A program made the position numbers and the translations under genes. A DNA stretch of 64,000 nt from Bacteroidales bacterium. GTDB taxonomy: Bacteria > Bacteroidota > Bacteroidia > Bacteroidales > UBA932. The notes under the pieces were generated by a model. That model was given only the letters and a program-made list of their open reading frames with translations. It searched no databases and was not told where the DNA came from. The stretch is from positions 1 to 64,000 of the forward strand of contig JAEEXZ010000005.1 of assembly GCA_016288055.1 (NCBI GenBank), read 5' to 3'. Of the stretch, positions 44,482 through 52,555 are shown in pieces (within the stretch, counting starts at the first letter, position 1; every line of letters starts with the position of its first letter).

Positions 44482-46365
44482 ATGGGTAAAATCATCGGTA
44501 TCGACCTGGGAACAACCAATTCCTGCGTCGCTGTGATGGAAGGCAACCAGCCTACCGTCATCATCAATAACGAGGGTCAGCGCACCACTCCTTCCGTGGT
44601 CGCCTTCACCGACGGCGGCGAGCGTAAGATCGGCTCGCCTGCAAAACGTCAGGCTATCACCAATCCTAACAACACGGTGTTCTCCATCAAGCGTTTCATG
44701 GGTGAGACCTATGATCAGGTGAATGCAGAAGTGGCCCGCGTGCCCTACAAGGTGGTACGTGGAGAGAATAACACGCCCCGCGTGGACATCAACGGCAAAC
44801 TCTATACGCCGCAGGAAATCTCGGCCATGATTCTTCAGAAGATGAAGAAGACCGCCGAGGAGTACCTGCGTCAGGAAGTGACGGAGGCCGTTATCACGGT
44901 TCCTGCTTACTTCTCCGACTCCCAGCGTCAGGCTACCAAGGAGGCCGGCCGCATCGCGGGCCTGGATGTGAAGCGTATCATCAACGAGCCCACGGCGGCT
45001 GCCCTGGCCTATGGCCTGGACAAGAAGGACAAGGACATGAAGGTGGCGGTCTATGACCTGGGCGGCGGTACTTTCGATATCTCCATCCTGCAGCTCGGTG
45101 ACGGCGTTTTCGAGGTGCTCTCCACCAACGGTGACACCCATCTGGGCGGTGACGACTTCGACCAGGTGATCATTGACTGGCTGGCCGCCGAGTTCGCGGC
45201 CGAAAACGGCGGTATCGACCTCAAGAAGGACCCCATGGCCCTGCAGCGTCTGAAGGAAGCGGCCGAGAAAGCCAAGATCGAGCTTTCCAGCCAGACTTCC
45301 ACCGAAATCAACCTGCCGTACATCATGCCTGTGGACGGCGTGCCCAAGCACCTCGCCAAGACCCTCACCCGGGCCAAGTTCGAGCAGCTTTCCGATGCCC
45401 TGTTCCAGCGTTCCATCGCCCCTTGCCGCCAGGCCCTGAGCGATGCACACCTGAACCCCTCCGACATTGACGAGGTCCTGCTCGTGGGTGGTTCCACCCG
45501 TATCCCTTATGTGCAGGAACTGGTGAAGAACTTCTTCGGAAAGGAGCCCAACAAGAGCGTGAACCCCGACGAGGTGGTCGCCATCGGCGCCTCCATCCAG
45601 GGTGGCGTGCTGGCCGGCGACGTGAAGGATGTCCTGCTGCTGGATGTGACCCCGCTGAGCCTGGGTATCGAGACCCTGGGCGGCGTGATGACCAAACTCA
45701 TCGAGTCCAACACCACCATTCCGGCCAAGAAGAGCCAGATCTTCTCCACGGCGGCCGACAACCAGCCCGGTGTGGAAATCCGCGTCCTGCAGGGCGAGCG
45801 CCCCATGGCCAAGGACAACAAGCAGATTGGCATCTTCCATCTGGACGGCATCGCCCCGGCACCCCGTGGCGTACCTCAGATCGAGGTGACCTTTGATATC
45901 GATGCCAACGGTATCCTCAATGTGAGCGCCGTGGATAAGGCTACCGGCAAGGAGCAGCACATCCGCATCGAGGCCTCCAGCGGCCTGTCCGACGCCGAAA
46001 TCCAGCGCATGCGGGACGAGGCCAAGGCCAACGAAGCCGCCGACAAGGCCGAGAAGGAGCGCATCGACAAGATTAACAGCGCCGACGCCCTCACCTTCCA
46101 GGCCGAGAAGTTCCTGAAGGAGAACGGCGACAAGGTTCCGGCCGATATCAAGGGCGAAGTGGAAACCAACTGCAACCTCCTGAAGGAAGCCGTGAAGGCC
46201 CAGAACGTGGCGGATATCGACCGCTATTCCGAGGCCCTGAACAAAGCCTTCGAGAAGATGTACCAGGCGGGCCAGCAGGCCCAGGGCGGCCCTCAGGGCC
46301 CGTTCCAGGGCGGTCCCCAGGGTCCTCAGCCCGGTCCGCAGGACCAGGGTCCGGACGAGCAGTAA
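44482..46365 (+). CDS. dnaK: Molecular chaperone DnaK
   Basis: [34 protein letters not shown]; 627 aa. Confidence 0.98.
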
Positions 46366-46388: not shown

Positions 46389-46426
46389 GCGGTTGGCCGA
46401 AGGGCCGGCCGCTTTTTTTGTTTTTT
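46389..46426 (+). terminator. Intrinsic terminator downstream of dnaK
   Basis: gcggttggccgaagggccggccgctttttttg. Confidence 0.85.
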
Positions 46427-46448
46427 AACAAATATCATTGTATCTTTG
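46418..46448 (+). promoter_or_regulatory. Bacteroidetes-type promoter TTG-N20-TATCTTTG
   Basis: ttg 46418-46420, tatctttg 46441-46448, 21 nt before the ATG at 46470. Confidence 0.7.
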
Positions 46449-46469
46449 TATAATACTTAGAAGAAGGAA

Positions 46470-48425
46470 ATGAAATCTGTTAAATGGATAATGGTCCTTT
46501 CCGTTTCCATGCTTCTGGTAGGTTGTGCCTCACAGCGTAAACTTGCCAGACTGGGTGCCGAACGGGTGGACGTATTCAAGAAAGATCTGGCGGATTTTCT
46601 TCCGGACCAGACCGAGGGCGTATTTGAACCGCCCACCGAGATTGTCACCACCGATGAAAACGGCAAAGAAGTCATCCTCATGGCCACCCGTGTGGATGAG
46701 GAGACCGGCGATACCGAGGTGACCGATGTGTTACAAGCCGCCGTGGTGACGGCCCGATTCCAGAACCGGGCCGAGCGCGCCGGCAAGATTGACCTGGAGT
46801 TCCGGATCCGGGTGCCCGAGTCCATGCTGGACAAGAACTGGGAGATTACCCTGGAACCCCACATGTGCATGCAGGGGGATGTGACCTGGCTGGACCCGGT
46901 CATCATTACCGGTACGTCTTTCCAGAACCGGCGCTTGCGCGGGTATGAGCGCTATCAGCGGCTGGTGGACAGCATCGTCACGGATTCGCTGGACCTCACC
47001 TGGCGCTGGCAGCTGGAACGCTTCATCGAACGGAACATCCCGGAGCTCTATGCGTTCCGCTCAGACTCTTCCTACGTGAGCGAAACCTCCTGGTATGGCG
47101 TGAACGGGGTGGAAGCCATCCGCCATTACACCAACCAGTGCCGCCGCAACCGGAACCAGTACAAGATAGACCACCTGGAGGATTATTTCAAGTCCTATGT
47201 GCGTTCCCCTTATCAGGAGAATGCCCGCCTGGACACCCTCCTGGACGGCAACGGCGCCCCGTTCCTGTATGATTATGCCGAGACGGTGGACACCCGCCCC
47301 AAGCTGCGCAAGATTGGCGTGGTGGTTTCCGGCGACATCCGTCGCGACGGCCGGTTGCTGTACAACATCCCGCCCACGGACACGCTCAATTTCTATGTGA
47401 GCAGCCTGTCCAGCTTTGCCAAGGACATCATCCGCTACAAGAAGGAAGTGGTGTACCGCCGCAAGGACGAGAGCACCTCGCGCAACATCATCTTCCCGCT
47501 GGCCAAGTCGGGCCTGTATCCGGAACTGGGGGACAACGCCCGGGAAATCCGGATTATCGAGGAAACCCTCAAGCAGCTTCTGCTGCATGACACCTACGAA
47601 CTGGACAGCCTGGTCATCCGGGCCAACAGTTCCCCGGACGGTCCTTACCGCCGCAACCTGGAGTTGTCGGCCCAGCGTTCGGCCTCCGTGTCGCGCCACT
47701 TCAACGCGTTTATGCGTCACCTGCGCGATTCCGTGGTAGCGGCCCAGGGCTACGCCGTGGATTCCACCGGCCGCATGCAGGCGGCTTTCCAGGTGGAACT
47801 GCCCAAGATCCAGTCCCACGCCACCCCGGAGAACTGGGATGGCCTGGATGCCCTGGTGGCCCAGGATCCCAGCTTCACGCCCACCGACCGCAACCGCTAT
47901 GCCCGTCTGCGGAAGGAGAAGCCCGAAGACCGCCGGGACTACCTGATGAGCCAGGAACGTTTTGGCCCGTATATCCGCGAACAGCTCTATCCCCGCCTGC
48001 GCCGGGTGGACTTCGATTTCCACATGCACCGCCGGGGTATGGTGAAGGATACGGTGGAGACCACCGTGCCGGATGATATCTACCAGGAGGGCCTCCAGGC
48101 CCTGCGGGACCGCGATTACAACAAGGCCATCGAGCTCCTGGCTCCGTACAAGGATTACAACACGGCCGTGGCCTATCTGGCCATGGACCGCAACCTGAGT
48201 GCGCTGCAAATCCTGGAGAAAGAGCCGGAAACTCCGGCCGTCCATTACATGATGGCCATCCTCAAGTCCCGTATGGGTGACTTCCAGGGCGCTGTGAACG
48301 AATACCTGGAAGCCTGCCGCGGAGACCGTATGTACATTGCCAGGGGTAACCTGGATCCTGAGATTTCGGTGCTCATCAAGCGCTATCAACTTCATGTTAC
48401 TCCGGAGGAGGCGGATATGCCGTAA
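46470..48425 (+). CDS. Lipoprotein with OmpA-like and TPR-like regions
   Basis: Lipobox LLVGC; RANSSPDGPYRRNLELSAQRSASVSRHF; repeats near YQEGLQALRDRDYNKAIELL. Confidence 0.75.
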   Translation: MKSVKWIMVLSVSMLLVGCASQRKLARLGAERVDVFKKDLADFLPDQTEGVFEPPTEIVTTDENGKEVILMATRVDEETGDTEVTDVLQAAVVTARFQNRAERAGKIDLEFRIRVPESMLDKNWEITLEPHMCMQGDVTWLDPVIITGTSFQNRRLRGYERYQRLVDSIVTDSLDLTWRWQLERFIERNIPELYAFRSDSSYVSETSWYGVNGVEAIRHYTNQCRRNRNQYKIDHLEDYFKSYVRSPYQENARLDTLLDGNGAPFLYDYAETVDTRPKLRKIGVVVSGDIRRDGRLLYNIPPTDTLNFYVSSLSSFAKDIIRYKKEVVYRRKDESTSRNIIFPLAKSGLYPELGDNAREIRIIEETLKQLLLHDTYELDSLVIRANSSPDGPYRRNLELSAQRSASVSRHFNAFMRHLRDSVVAAQGYAVDSTGRMQAAFQVELPKIQSHATPENWDGLDALVAQDPSFTPTDRNRYARLRKEKPEDRRDYLMSQERFGPYIREQLYPRLRRVDFDFHMHRRGMVKDTVETTVPDDIYQEGLQALRDRDYNKAIELLAPYKDYNTAVAYLAMDRNLSALQILEKEPETPAVHYMMAILKSRMGDFQGAVNEYLEACRGDRMYIARGNLDPEISVLIKRYQLHVTPEEADMP

Positions 48426-50701
48426 TGAAAAAGCTGGTACTCATGGCATGGGCCCTGGCCCTGCCGCTGCTGGCCCTGGCCCAGCAGCCCACCGGCTGGA
48501 ACACCCGTTCGGCCGGTACCAACTGGGAATTGGGCGTAGCGGGGGGCTTCCACAATGTCTGGAACCCCATGCGGGATTACACCATCAAGATTGACCCGCA
48601 TATAACGTCCGCCATGGAGGTGAGCCTGTCCAAGTGGTTCACCCCGCAGCTGGGCGCCCGCCTGGCCTGGGAAGGCTGGCAGGTGGAACACAGCTATACG
48701 GAGCCCTTCAGCTTTGCCTATATCCATGCCGACCTCCTGTGGAATGCGTCTTCGCGGATCTGGGGCTATGACCCTTCCCGCGTCTGGGATGTGATTCCGT
48801 ATGGACACTTCGGCTATCTGCATGAGTGGCGTGGTGAGCAGGTGATTGAACGCGAATACGGGGCTGGCGTGGGCCTGATCGGCCGTGTCCGGCTGGGCCG
48901 GCGCGTGCACGGTACCCTGGATCTTCGCTCCATCCTCCAGAACGGGGCGGGCTCCCAGGGCATTGGTATCGGCCTGTTGAATTCGGCCCAGCTGGGTCTT
49001 TCCGTGACCCTGGGCCAGGTGGGCTGGAAACCGGCATCGGCCGGCGATGTGCTGCCTGGCGAGCTGGGAGACAACTGGTTCGTGTCGGCGGGCTTTGGCG
49101 TGAATTCGCTCACGCAGCTTTCCTTTGAGCAACCGCGCCTGACGGGCTCGGCGGCCCCGGCCTTCGAACTGGCCGTCGGGAAGTGGGTGAGCCCCGCCAT
49201 CGGCGTCCGGGTGGCCCTGCAGGGCATCGCGTATGCCGGACATGGTAACGACCCCCGCGAGTATGTGACGGCTTCGGCCACCAGCGGGGAGTGGGCCTAC
49301 CGCGAACAGTTTAATTTCGTATATCCCCATATCGACCTCTTGTGGAATGTCCGCAATACCTTCCGCGGATACCAGCAGCGGGGTCTGATGATGGCTCCCT
49401 ATGCGCACTTCGGCGCAATCCAGGAGTTCGGAAACGGCCATGACGGAGACCGGGAATATGCCGCTGGCGCCGGTCTGCTGGTGCAGGGACCGGTTTCCGG
49501 GGCCCTGGGCTGGCACCTGGATTTCCGGGGCACGGCGTTCACCGCTGCCGCCACCGGCGACCGGCAGGCCCCCCATTCCGTGGGTCTCACGGCCCTTGCC
49601 GGCCTCCAGTACAGCCTGGGCAGGCCCGATTGGAAATTCTCGGGCGCTGCCGCCCCCCGTCGCATCCAGTCGGATGCCCTGCCTCTTTTCAAGGCCGGGC
49701 AGGGCTGGTTCGTCCAGACCTCCGTGGGGGTGCGCTCGCTCTTTGATATCGGCCAGTATTTCCAGATTCACAGCGTGGACAAGCCTGTGGCCTGCGGAGA
49801 ACTGGCATTCGGCAAATGGTTCTCGCCCGTTTCCGGTTTCCGCGTGGGCGTGAGCGGCCTTTCCCAGGTGTTTGAAGACCAGCTCGCTGGTTATGCCGAT
49901 TTCCATGCCGACTACCTGTTCAACCTCTTCCAGTGGATTTCGCCCAATGAGCGCCGCGTCTGGAACCCCATCCCGTACCTTTCGGGCGGTTATCTGGCCG
50001 GCTATCAATTTGGCGATCCGGCCCGTGGCGCCGGTCCTTCCGGCTGGGTCTGGGGCGGCGGCCTGCTCAACACCATCCGGCTGTTCCCGCAGCTGGACCT
50101 GACGCTGGACGTGCGCGGAACCCTGATTCCGCCCTATGCCGACATCGCTCCCGGACATGGCTATATGGCCGCCGCCGAGGCCCTGCTGGGACTGCAATAC
50201 CGTCCCGACGAGAAGCCCTGGTATCCGTCGGAGCAGACGGCGCCCCGCAAGGAGCGTCATCTGTGGGCCCTCTCCACCAACCTGGCCGATTATGTGGACT
50301 ATGGAAATGCCAATCTGGAGCTCCTCTACGGCGTAGCGCGCCACTGGACCCTGGATGCCCTGGTGAAATATGGCCTGTTCAACGGCGGAAACTACGACCA
50401 GCGTGAACGCTATGCCGTGGGTGCCCGCTGGTGGCCCTGGTACACCTATTCCGGCCTCTGGGTGCGTGGCCTGGTGCAGACCGAGAACTACGCCCGCAGC
50501 GGCGTCCCCGTCTTCCAGGATGGCAAGGGACAGGCCTGGGGTATGTCCCTGTCGGCTGGTTATTCCCTCATGCTGCTCAAATGGCTGAACCTGGATCTGG
50601 GTGCCGGTGTCTGGGGCGGCCGCCGCGGTCTCCCCGGCGGGCAGCAGGACTGGTTTGCCGAGCCCGAGATGATTACCGTAGGATTGATGTTTGTTTTTTA
50701 G
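48425..50701 (+). CDS. Outer-membrane protein with three tandem barrel-like modules and a DUF3575-like C-terminal domain
   Basis: Repeated (E)(L/V)(A/S).(G/S)KW.(S/T)P..G.R...and (A/I)D(L/Y)L(W/F)N signatures; starts by TAATG overlap; C-terminal F. Confidence 0.75.
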   Translation: MKKLVLMAWALALPLLALAQQPTGWNTRSAGTNWELGVAGGFHNVWNPMRDYTIKIDPHITSAMEVSLSKWFTPQLGARLAWEGWQVEHSYTEPFSFAYIHADLLWNASSRIWGYDPSRVWDVIPYGHFGYLHEWRGEQVIEREYGAGVGLIGRVRLGRRVHGTLDLRSILQNGAGSQGIGIGLLNSAQLGLSVTLGQVGWKPASAGDVLPGELGDNWFVSAGFGVNSLTQLSFEQPRLTGSAAPAFELAVGKWVSPAIGVRVALQGIAYAGHGNDPREYVTASATSGEWAYREQFNFVYPHIDLLWNVRNTFRGYQQRGLMMAPYAHFGAIQEFGNGHDGDREYAAGAGLLVQGPVSGALGWHLDFRGTAFTAAATGDRQAPHSVGLTALAGLQYSLGRPDWKFSGAAAPRRIQSDALPLFKAGQGWFVQTSVGVRSLFDIGQYFQIHSVDKPVACGELAFGKWFSPVSGFRVGVSGLSQVFEDQLAGYADFHADYLFNLFQWISPNERRVWNPIPYLSGGYLAGYQFGDPARGAGPSGWVWGGGLLNTIRLFPQLDLTLDVRGTLIPPYADIAPGHGYMAAAEALLGLQYRPDEKPWYPSEQTAPRKERHLWALSTNLADYVDYGNANLELLYGVARHWTLDALVKYGLFNGGNYDQRERYAVGARWWPWYTYSGLWVRGLVQTENYARSGVPVFQDGKGQAWGMSLSAGYSLMLLKWLNLDLGAGVWGGRRGLPGGQQDWFAEPEMITVGLMFVF

Positions 50702-50716
50702 AACCTTATAACTTAG

Positions 50717-51439
50717 ATGTCTATGAAAAAGATAGTATGGGTGGCCGTTTTCCTGGCCGCAGGTGCCCTGGCTTTTACCGCCCAGGCGCAGATTGAAACC
50801 AATGCCGTCATCGAGGCCCGCCAGCAAGTGGACCAGAAAGAGAAAGATTTGCAGGACGCCCAGCAGAAGGCCAGCCAGGCCGCGAAAGATAGTCAGCGCG
50901 AACTCTCCCAGCTCAAGAAGGACGAGGACCGGCAGGTGAAGGATTTTAACGATGCCCGCCGGGCCGTGAAACTGGGCAAAAAGTCCATCAAGGCCAAGCA
51001 GGCTTCCATCAAGGCCCAGAAATCGGCCCTGAAACTCCAGAAGAAGAGCATGCAGGCCGACGGACGGCTGAGCCTGTCGGACAACGAGGCCCTGGATCAG
51101 TCCCAGCGTGCCCTGCGCAACGACGAACAGTCGCTCAAGGATGCCAAGCGGGACCTGAAACTGGCCCAGGAACAGGAGAAAGTGACCAAGAATGAGCTCA
51201 AACAGACCCGCGACCGCATCAAGCTGGTCAAGAAAGGCCTTTCGTCGGCCAAGAAGGAAGTGAATGCGGCCAAGCAGCAGGTGCGCAAGTCCAAAAAGGA
51301 TTTGAAGGCCCAGGAGGACCTCGCCGGCAAGCAGAACGAGGAACTGGACAAAGCCCTGCAGGATGCCGAGAAGGCCGCCCGCAAAGCTGAATCTGCCGGG
51401 AAGAAGGCAGATGCCGCCATGGAGAAAATAGCTGAATAA
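50717..51439 (+). CDS. Exported coiled-coil protein of unknown function
   Basis: Signal peptide to AQAQ, then about 215 aa of charged heptad-like sequence. Confidence 0.8.
   Translation: MSMKKIVWVAVFLAAGALAFTAQAQIETNAVIEARQQVDQKEKDLQDAQQKASQAAKDSQRELSQLKKDEDRQVKDFNDARRAVKLGKKSIKAKQASIKAQKSALKLQKKSMQADGRLSLSDNEALDQSQRALRNDEQSLKDAKRDLKLAQEQEKVTKNELKQTRDRIKLVKKGLSSAKKEVNAAKQQVRKSKKDLKAQEDLAGKQNEELDKALQDAEKAARKAESAGKKADAAMEKIAE

Positions 51440-52555
<1,116 letters not shown>

Follow-up and report, generated by a model that had tools for sequence, protein, structure and literature searches.

The window analysed here, a 64,000-nt stretch of DNA from an uncultured Bacteroidales bacterium of gut or rumen origin (assembly GCA_016288055.1, contig JAEEXZ010000005.1), carries between dnaK and trpS a set of three genes, designated P1, P2 and P3 (Table 1). 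P1 and the C-terminal unit of P2 are homologous to the DUF3868/DUF3575 pair of accessory genes of type V pilus loci, from which the arrangement in the window differs by its reversed gene order, the addition of barrel modules to DUF3575 and the absence of pilin genes. We interpret the locus, with a probability of about 55%, as a pilus-free offshoot of this accessory pair. The odds are roughly even that P2 and its relatives each constitute one chain with three to nine separate outer-membrane barrels (2-8 OmpA-type modules plus DUF3575), varying in number between species and built on a pilus accessory pair without a pilus.

Inspection of the nucleotide sequence confirmed the coordinates and layout described in an earlier sequence-only reading of this DNA, i.e. 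a terminator, a promoter and three tightly packed genes ahead of trpS. P1 and P2 overlap by one base (TAATG), P2 and P3 are separated by 15 nt, and trpS starts at position 51443, 3 nt past P3. The promoter agrees with the -33/-7 consensus of Bacteroidota, and a TAnnTTTG box is likewise located 3' of the dnaK terminator in two related loci (L216 and L223).

Table 1. Features of the P1-P2-P3 region and other features of the window (positions refer to the whole window).
Feature	Position	Strand	Description or basis
Lipoprotein-like protein, 412 aa	41383-42621		rich in 'SWAWDPWYY' and Ser/Arg/Gly repeats
Outer-membrane protein, 573 aa	42637-44358		upstream of dnaK; weak PorV/PorQ family match
dnaK	44482-46365		upstream neighbour of the P1-P2-P3 set
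dnaK intrinsic terminator-like hairpin	46389..46419	+	GC-rich, with T run; sequence reading
Promoter TTTG-N20-TATCTTTG	46417..46448	+	Bacteroidota type; sequence
P1, 651 aa	46470..48425	+	DUF3868-type outer-membrane lipoprotein
P1 lipobox LVGC-ASQRKLA, Cys19	46524..46526	+	sequence
P1 OmpA-like domain	47463..48071	+	AlphaFold model, Foldseek, alignment
P1 TPR-like C-terminus	48075..48386	+	sub-threshold Pfam, AlphaFold model
P2, 758 aa	48425..50701	+	predicted outer-membrane protein with barrels in tandem; three modules of OmpA type + DUF3575
P2 module 1 (M1)	48518..49030	+	eight strands in model
P2 module 2 (M2)	49067..49636	+	eight long strands in model
P2 module 3 (M3)	49700..50203	+	eight strands in model
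P2 DUF3575 unit	50255..50698	+	about eight strands; C-terminal Phe at end
P3, 240 aa	50717..51439	+	exported coiled-coil protein
Transposase-like ORF, 330 aa	53617-54609	-	zinc-ribbon-like N-terminus

The lipobox Cys of P1 is followed by small and basic residues, and none of the aligned P1 homologs has an acidic residue in the first positions past it. As a general rule, acidic residues at this site act as a surface-export signal, so that P1 probably faces the periplasm. The lipid anchor is followed by (i) a disordered linker (aa 19-87), (ii) beta and helical domains (about 92-330), (iii) a degenerate OmpA-like domain with a helical insert (about 332-534) and (iv) TPR (536-639). The earlier assignment of OmpA-like and TPR-like parts remained below the Pfam threshold for both, but was upheld by the AlphaFold model (pLDDT 80, pTM 0.52), in which the TPR-like helices come after the OmpA-like domain, and, for the OmpA fold, by Foldseek matches to OmpA C-terminal domains of known structure. 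The alignments used for folding P1 and P2 consisted of sequences from the window and the related loci. Ser388 of P1 occupies the position of an Asp which, together with an Arg (Arg403 in P1), forms the diaminopimelate (peptidoglycan) site of OmpA; in 38 of the 38 aligned P1 sequences the Asp is replaced by Ser and the Arg is kept. Canonical contact of P1 with peptidoglycan, as proposed in the sequence-only reading, is therefore unlikely.

Neither P1 nor any other protein of the same genome matches Pfam PF12984 (DUF3868), and the link of P1 with DUF3868 rests on profile homology and domain order. The P1 profile matches true PF12984 proteins of other Bacteroidales (E 1e-19 to 1e-28), which have the domain order DUF3868-OmpA-TPR, seen directly in one PF12984-type relative of P1 (L296), and are encoded next to a DUF3575 gene; in the window, P2 incorporates this neighbour at its C-terminus. 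By these sequence criteria P1 is a homologue of the DUF3868-type lipoproteins, which combine beta domains with an OmpA-like domain and TPR. Searches of PHROGs, NCBIfam and, directly by sequence, PDB yielded nothing useful for P1 or P2. In three genomes, the P1 relatives (L020, L032 and L033) contain in-frame stop codons within the matched stretch. Lipoproteins of ~600 aa resembling P1, some encoded as tandem pairs, are also present in other Bacteroidales families (L301-L314); no DUF3575 or FimA was found in the short stretches around these genes.

The repeated modules previously noted in P2 proved to be real, since pairwise alignments of M1-M3 (27-28% identity) score far above chance, at 15-28 SD above shuffled sequence. 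The earlier reading had overlooked a fourth, different unit, which comprises the last 150 residues of P2; of these, aa 614-730 match Pfam DUF3575 (PF12099) with an E value of 5e-11 and 42.6 bits, against a curated cut-off of 21.1. The AlphaFold model (pLDDT 77) agrees with the proposed multi-barrel outer-membrane protein and shows about 32 strands, divided among four units of eight; it informs on these strand groups and, with a pTM of 0.52, not on the mutual arrangement of the putative barrels. In Foldseek comparisons with the viral set, P2 was aligned with single OmpA-type barrel proteins at target TM values of 0.6-0.75.

The module of P2 corresponds to the N-terminal barrel of ~400-aa barrel+OmpA proteins, which carry PF00691 at their C-terminus and whose genes are arranged in tandem arrays. 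The module also occurs alone, in ~210-aa proteins (L145 and L287), and these stand-alone relatives imply that a single module can be complete by itself. At one of these loci (L287:7645-13463), a barrel-only gene, DUF3575 and P1 are three separate adjacent genes, without pilins, which adjoin a gene for a Wzc-like tyrosine kinase. It is possible that this arrangement represents an intermediate of the fusion.

Among 120 genomes sampled from the family, 58 had matches to P1, some of them only to the OmpA or TPR part; within the genus, 317 of 350 genomes had a match. In the usual neighbourhood, a DUF3575 gene (~190 aa) immediately precedes P1, genes for FimA, FimB-like and large tip-like proteins follow it, and the order DUF3575 - P1 - FimA - FimB is repeated in dozens of genomes. 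Pfam confirms P_gingi_FimA and Mfa2 in representative P1 loci. The genome from which the window derives has such a canonical pilus locus itself (L043, G000:C82), with its own DUF3575 and P1; a Pfam search of this genome for Mfa2 gave no match, and the FimA/FimB-like genes of L043 were identified with custom profiles. The sequence-only reading had not recognized the trio as a named system. Two of its parts can now be placed, as P1 and the C-terminus of P2 correspond to the DUF3868/DUF3575 pair found in type V pilus loci. A match to a fimbrial locus, which the sequence-only reading had regarded as grounds for abandoning its proposal, was found by half, since this pair matches and no pilin gene lies within 5 kb of P1 of the window.

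A different organization characterizes the offshoot to which the window belongs: P1 is the first gene and DUF3575 is fused behind 2-8 OmpA-type modules, so that the gene order is reversed relative to the pilus loci. An initial scan of contigs with P2 as the sole query detected no relative. Genes were called as stop-to-stop ORFs combined with profiles; in these GC-rich genomes, long antisense ORFs misled greedy calling. The number of modules is two in L131/L223, L133/L226 and L224, three in the window, four in L134/L225 and L218, six in L177/L216, L217 and L221, eight in L219, and at least three in L220, which is interrupted by a contig end (paired names denote one genome met in two collections). 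Such fusions are uncommon, with at least three cases besides the window among 399 genomes of the family (module search). The relatives that bear names are Bacteroidales MAGs from rumen and gut and Candidatus Cacconaster, and the genus of the window may be Cryptobacteroides, to judge by its size and company.

A scan with P2 as the driver showed P1 immediately upstream at each of the 10 fusion loci for which upstream sequence was available, and the order dnaK - P1 - P2 - P3 was found in three other genomes (L216/L177, L217 and L223/L131), which corroborates the earlier view that these genes belong together. In L217 the order extends to trpS, and P1 is split across two frames. Genes for FimA/Mfa-type pilins or FimB-type anchors within 5 kb are absent from 10 of 10 fusion loci, including the window, and present at 91 of 110 other P1 loci (Fisher p 2e-7, a value obtained with some short contigs and overstating the evidence because the fusion loci are related). 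In a quick tree, the fusion-type P1s form one clade among the pilus P1s (SH-aLRT 98), so that the fusion context probably arose once. The fusions occupy two recurrent housekeeping sites, one after dnaK with P3 (window, L216, L217 and L223) and the other upstream of gyrA without P3 (L219, L220, L221 and L224).

P3 has a strong hydrophobic periodicity of 3.5 residues (equalled by 0 of 1000 shuffles), in line with its earlier description as a coiled coil. It was detected with P1-P2 only at the dnaK locus; the remaining fusion loci showed P1-P2 alone. The trio as a unit is thus not supported, and P3 would be a lineage-specific addition to P1-P2. P3-like coiled-coil proteins are also encoded apart from P1 in genus g17 (L135-L138 and L144), several of them near genes resembling those for carbamate kinase and ornithine aminotransferase.

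We propose that P2 would form a row of separate eight-stranded barrels in the outer membrane (four in the window), and that P1, held by its lipid anchor in the inner leaflet, would dock on the DUF3575 barrel with its OmpA-like and TPR domains facing the periplasm. Where the set follows dnaK, P3 may bind this P1-P2 platform through its coiled coil; the lack of P3 at most fusion loci counts against this model. P1-P2 would serve as an outer-membrane scaffold or tether and not as a pilus assembly machine. The sequence-only reading instead proposed as possible an envelope-spanning assembly with peptidoglycan contact via P1, an idea in keeping with the OmpA-like fold, the lipoprotein anchor and the exported coiled coil. 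It appears very improbable, given the invariant Ser at the binding position and the fact that P3 is not conserved with the P1-P2 pair; together with the missing surface signal of P1, the replacement of the Asp favours a scaffold over a peptidoglycan-bound envelope bridge. A single very large barrel, closed jointly by all P2 modules, has perhaps the slightest chance of all: Foldseek also aligns P2 along large barrels, LptD and FadL among them, but these are poor superpositions (rmsd ~17-36 Å, target TM <0.3), single-module proteins occur alone, and the number of strands would have to vary from 24 to 72 among species.

It is unlikely, though less so, that P1-P2 continues to act in trans as a platform for type V pili, with pilins supplied from other loci of the same genome. 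P1 is well conserved throughout, and one or more complete pilus loci with genes of the FimA/FimB type exist in the genome of the window. But the pilus locus L043 already possesses a DUF3575 and a P1 of its own, pilin genes are missing near all 10 fusion loci, and both the fused array of barrels and the recurrence at housekeeping sites point to a distinct function. Eight-stranded barrels are not known to form a wide pore, and P2 lacks a peptidoglycan-binding OmpA domain while the OmpA-like copy in P1 lacks the binding Asp; these features speak against an OmpA-type function in envelope integrity or as a pore as the main role of P2, in which the barrels of an OmpA-like oligomer would be joined in one chain with P1 as the periplasmic foot. 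This role, which we regard as quite improbable, would suit the homology of the P2 modules with the barrels of the tandemly encoded barrel+OmpA proteins, and OmpA of P. gingivalis is predicted to combine OmpA1 and OmpA2, the products of neighbouring genes, in a heterotrimer (PMC5300881).

For the DUF3575/DUF3868 pair, the literature (open-licence papers) provided annotation lines only. The fimX and pgmA genes of P. gingivalis are probably the DUF3575 and DUF3868 genes. PgmA is an outer-membrane protein, both genes are dispensable for fimbria assembly, and a possible membrane-stabilising role of PgmA and FimB has been suggested (PMC3436787). If the equivalence holds, this dispensability may count against our model of the pair.

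The fusion loci suggest that the DUF3575/DUF3868 pair works without pilins, so that its core function would be separable and testable. Outer-membrane proteins normally contain one barrel per chain, and a literature search of open-licence papers found no precedent for a tandem or multi-barrel outer-membrane protein. A chain in which only the last barrel is C-terminal would test the recognition and folding of internal barrels by BAM, for which the variable number of modules offers a natural length series.

Among known systems, PorE (PG1058) of the T9SS resembles P1 in being a lipoprotein with OmpA-like and TPR parts, and Foldseek matched P1 with, among others, the OmpA-like domain of PorE. PorE reportedly has the order TPR - beta-propeller - CRD - OmpA, whereas in P1 the OmpA-like domain precedes TPR and the model contains no series of strands that could make up a propeller; membership of the T9SS was rejected on the grounds of this domain order. 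The tandemly encoded ~400-aa barrel+OmpA proteins (possibly of the Pgm6/Pgm7 or OmpA1/OmpA2 kind) share a homologous barrel with the P2 modules, but each combines one barrel with an OmpA domain, in contrast to the several predicted barrels and no OmpA domain of P2. The closest likeness is to the type V pilus accessory pair, with P1 similar to the DUF3868 protein, the end of P2 equal to DUF3575, the genes adjacent and an outer-membrane location expected; the locus in the window differs in having no pilin or tip genes, a reversed order and a DUF3575 unit fused to barrels.
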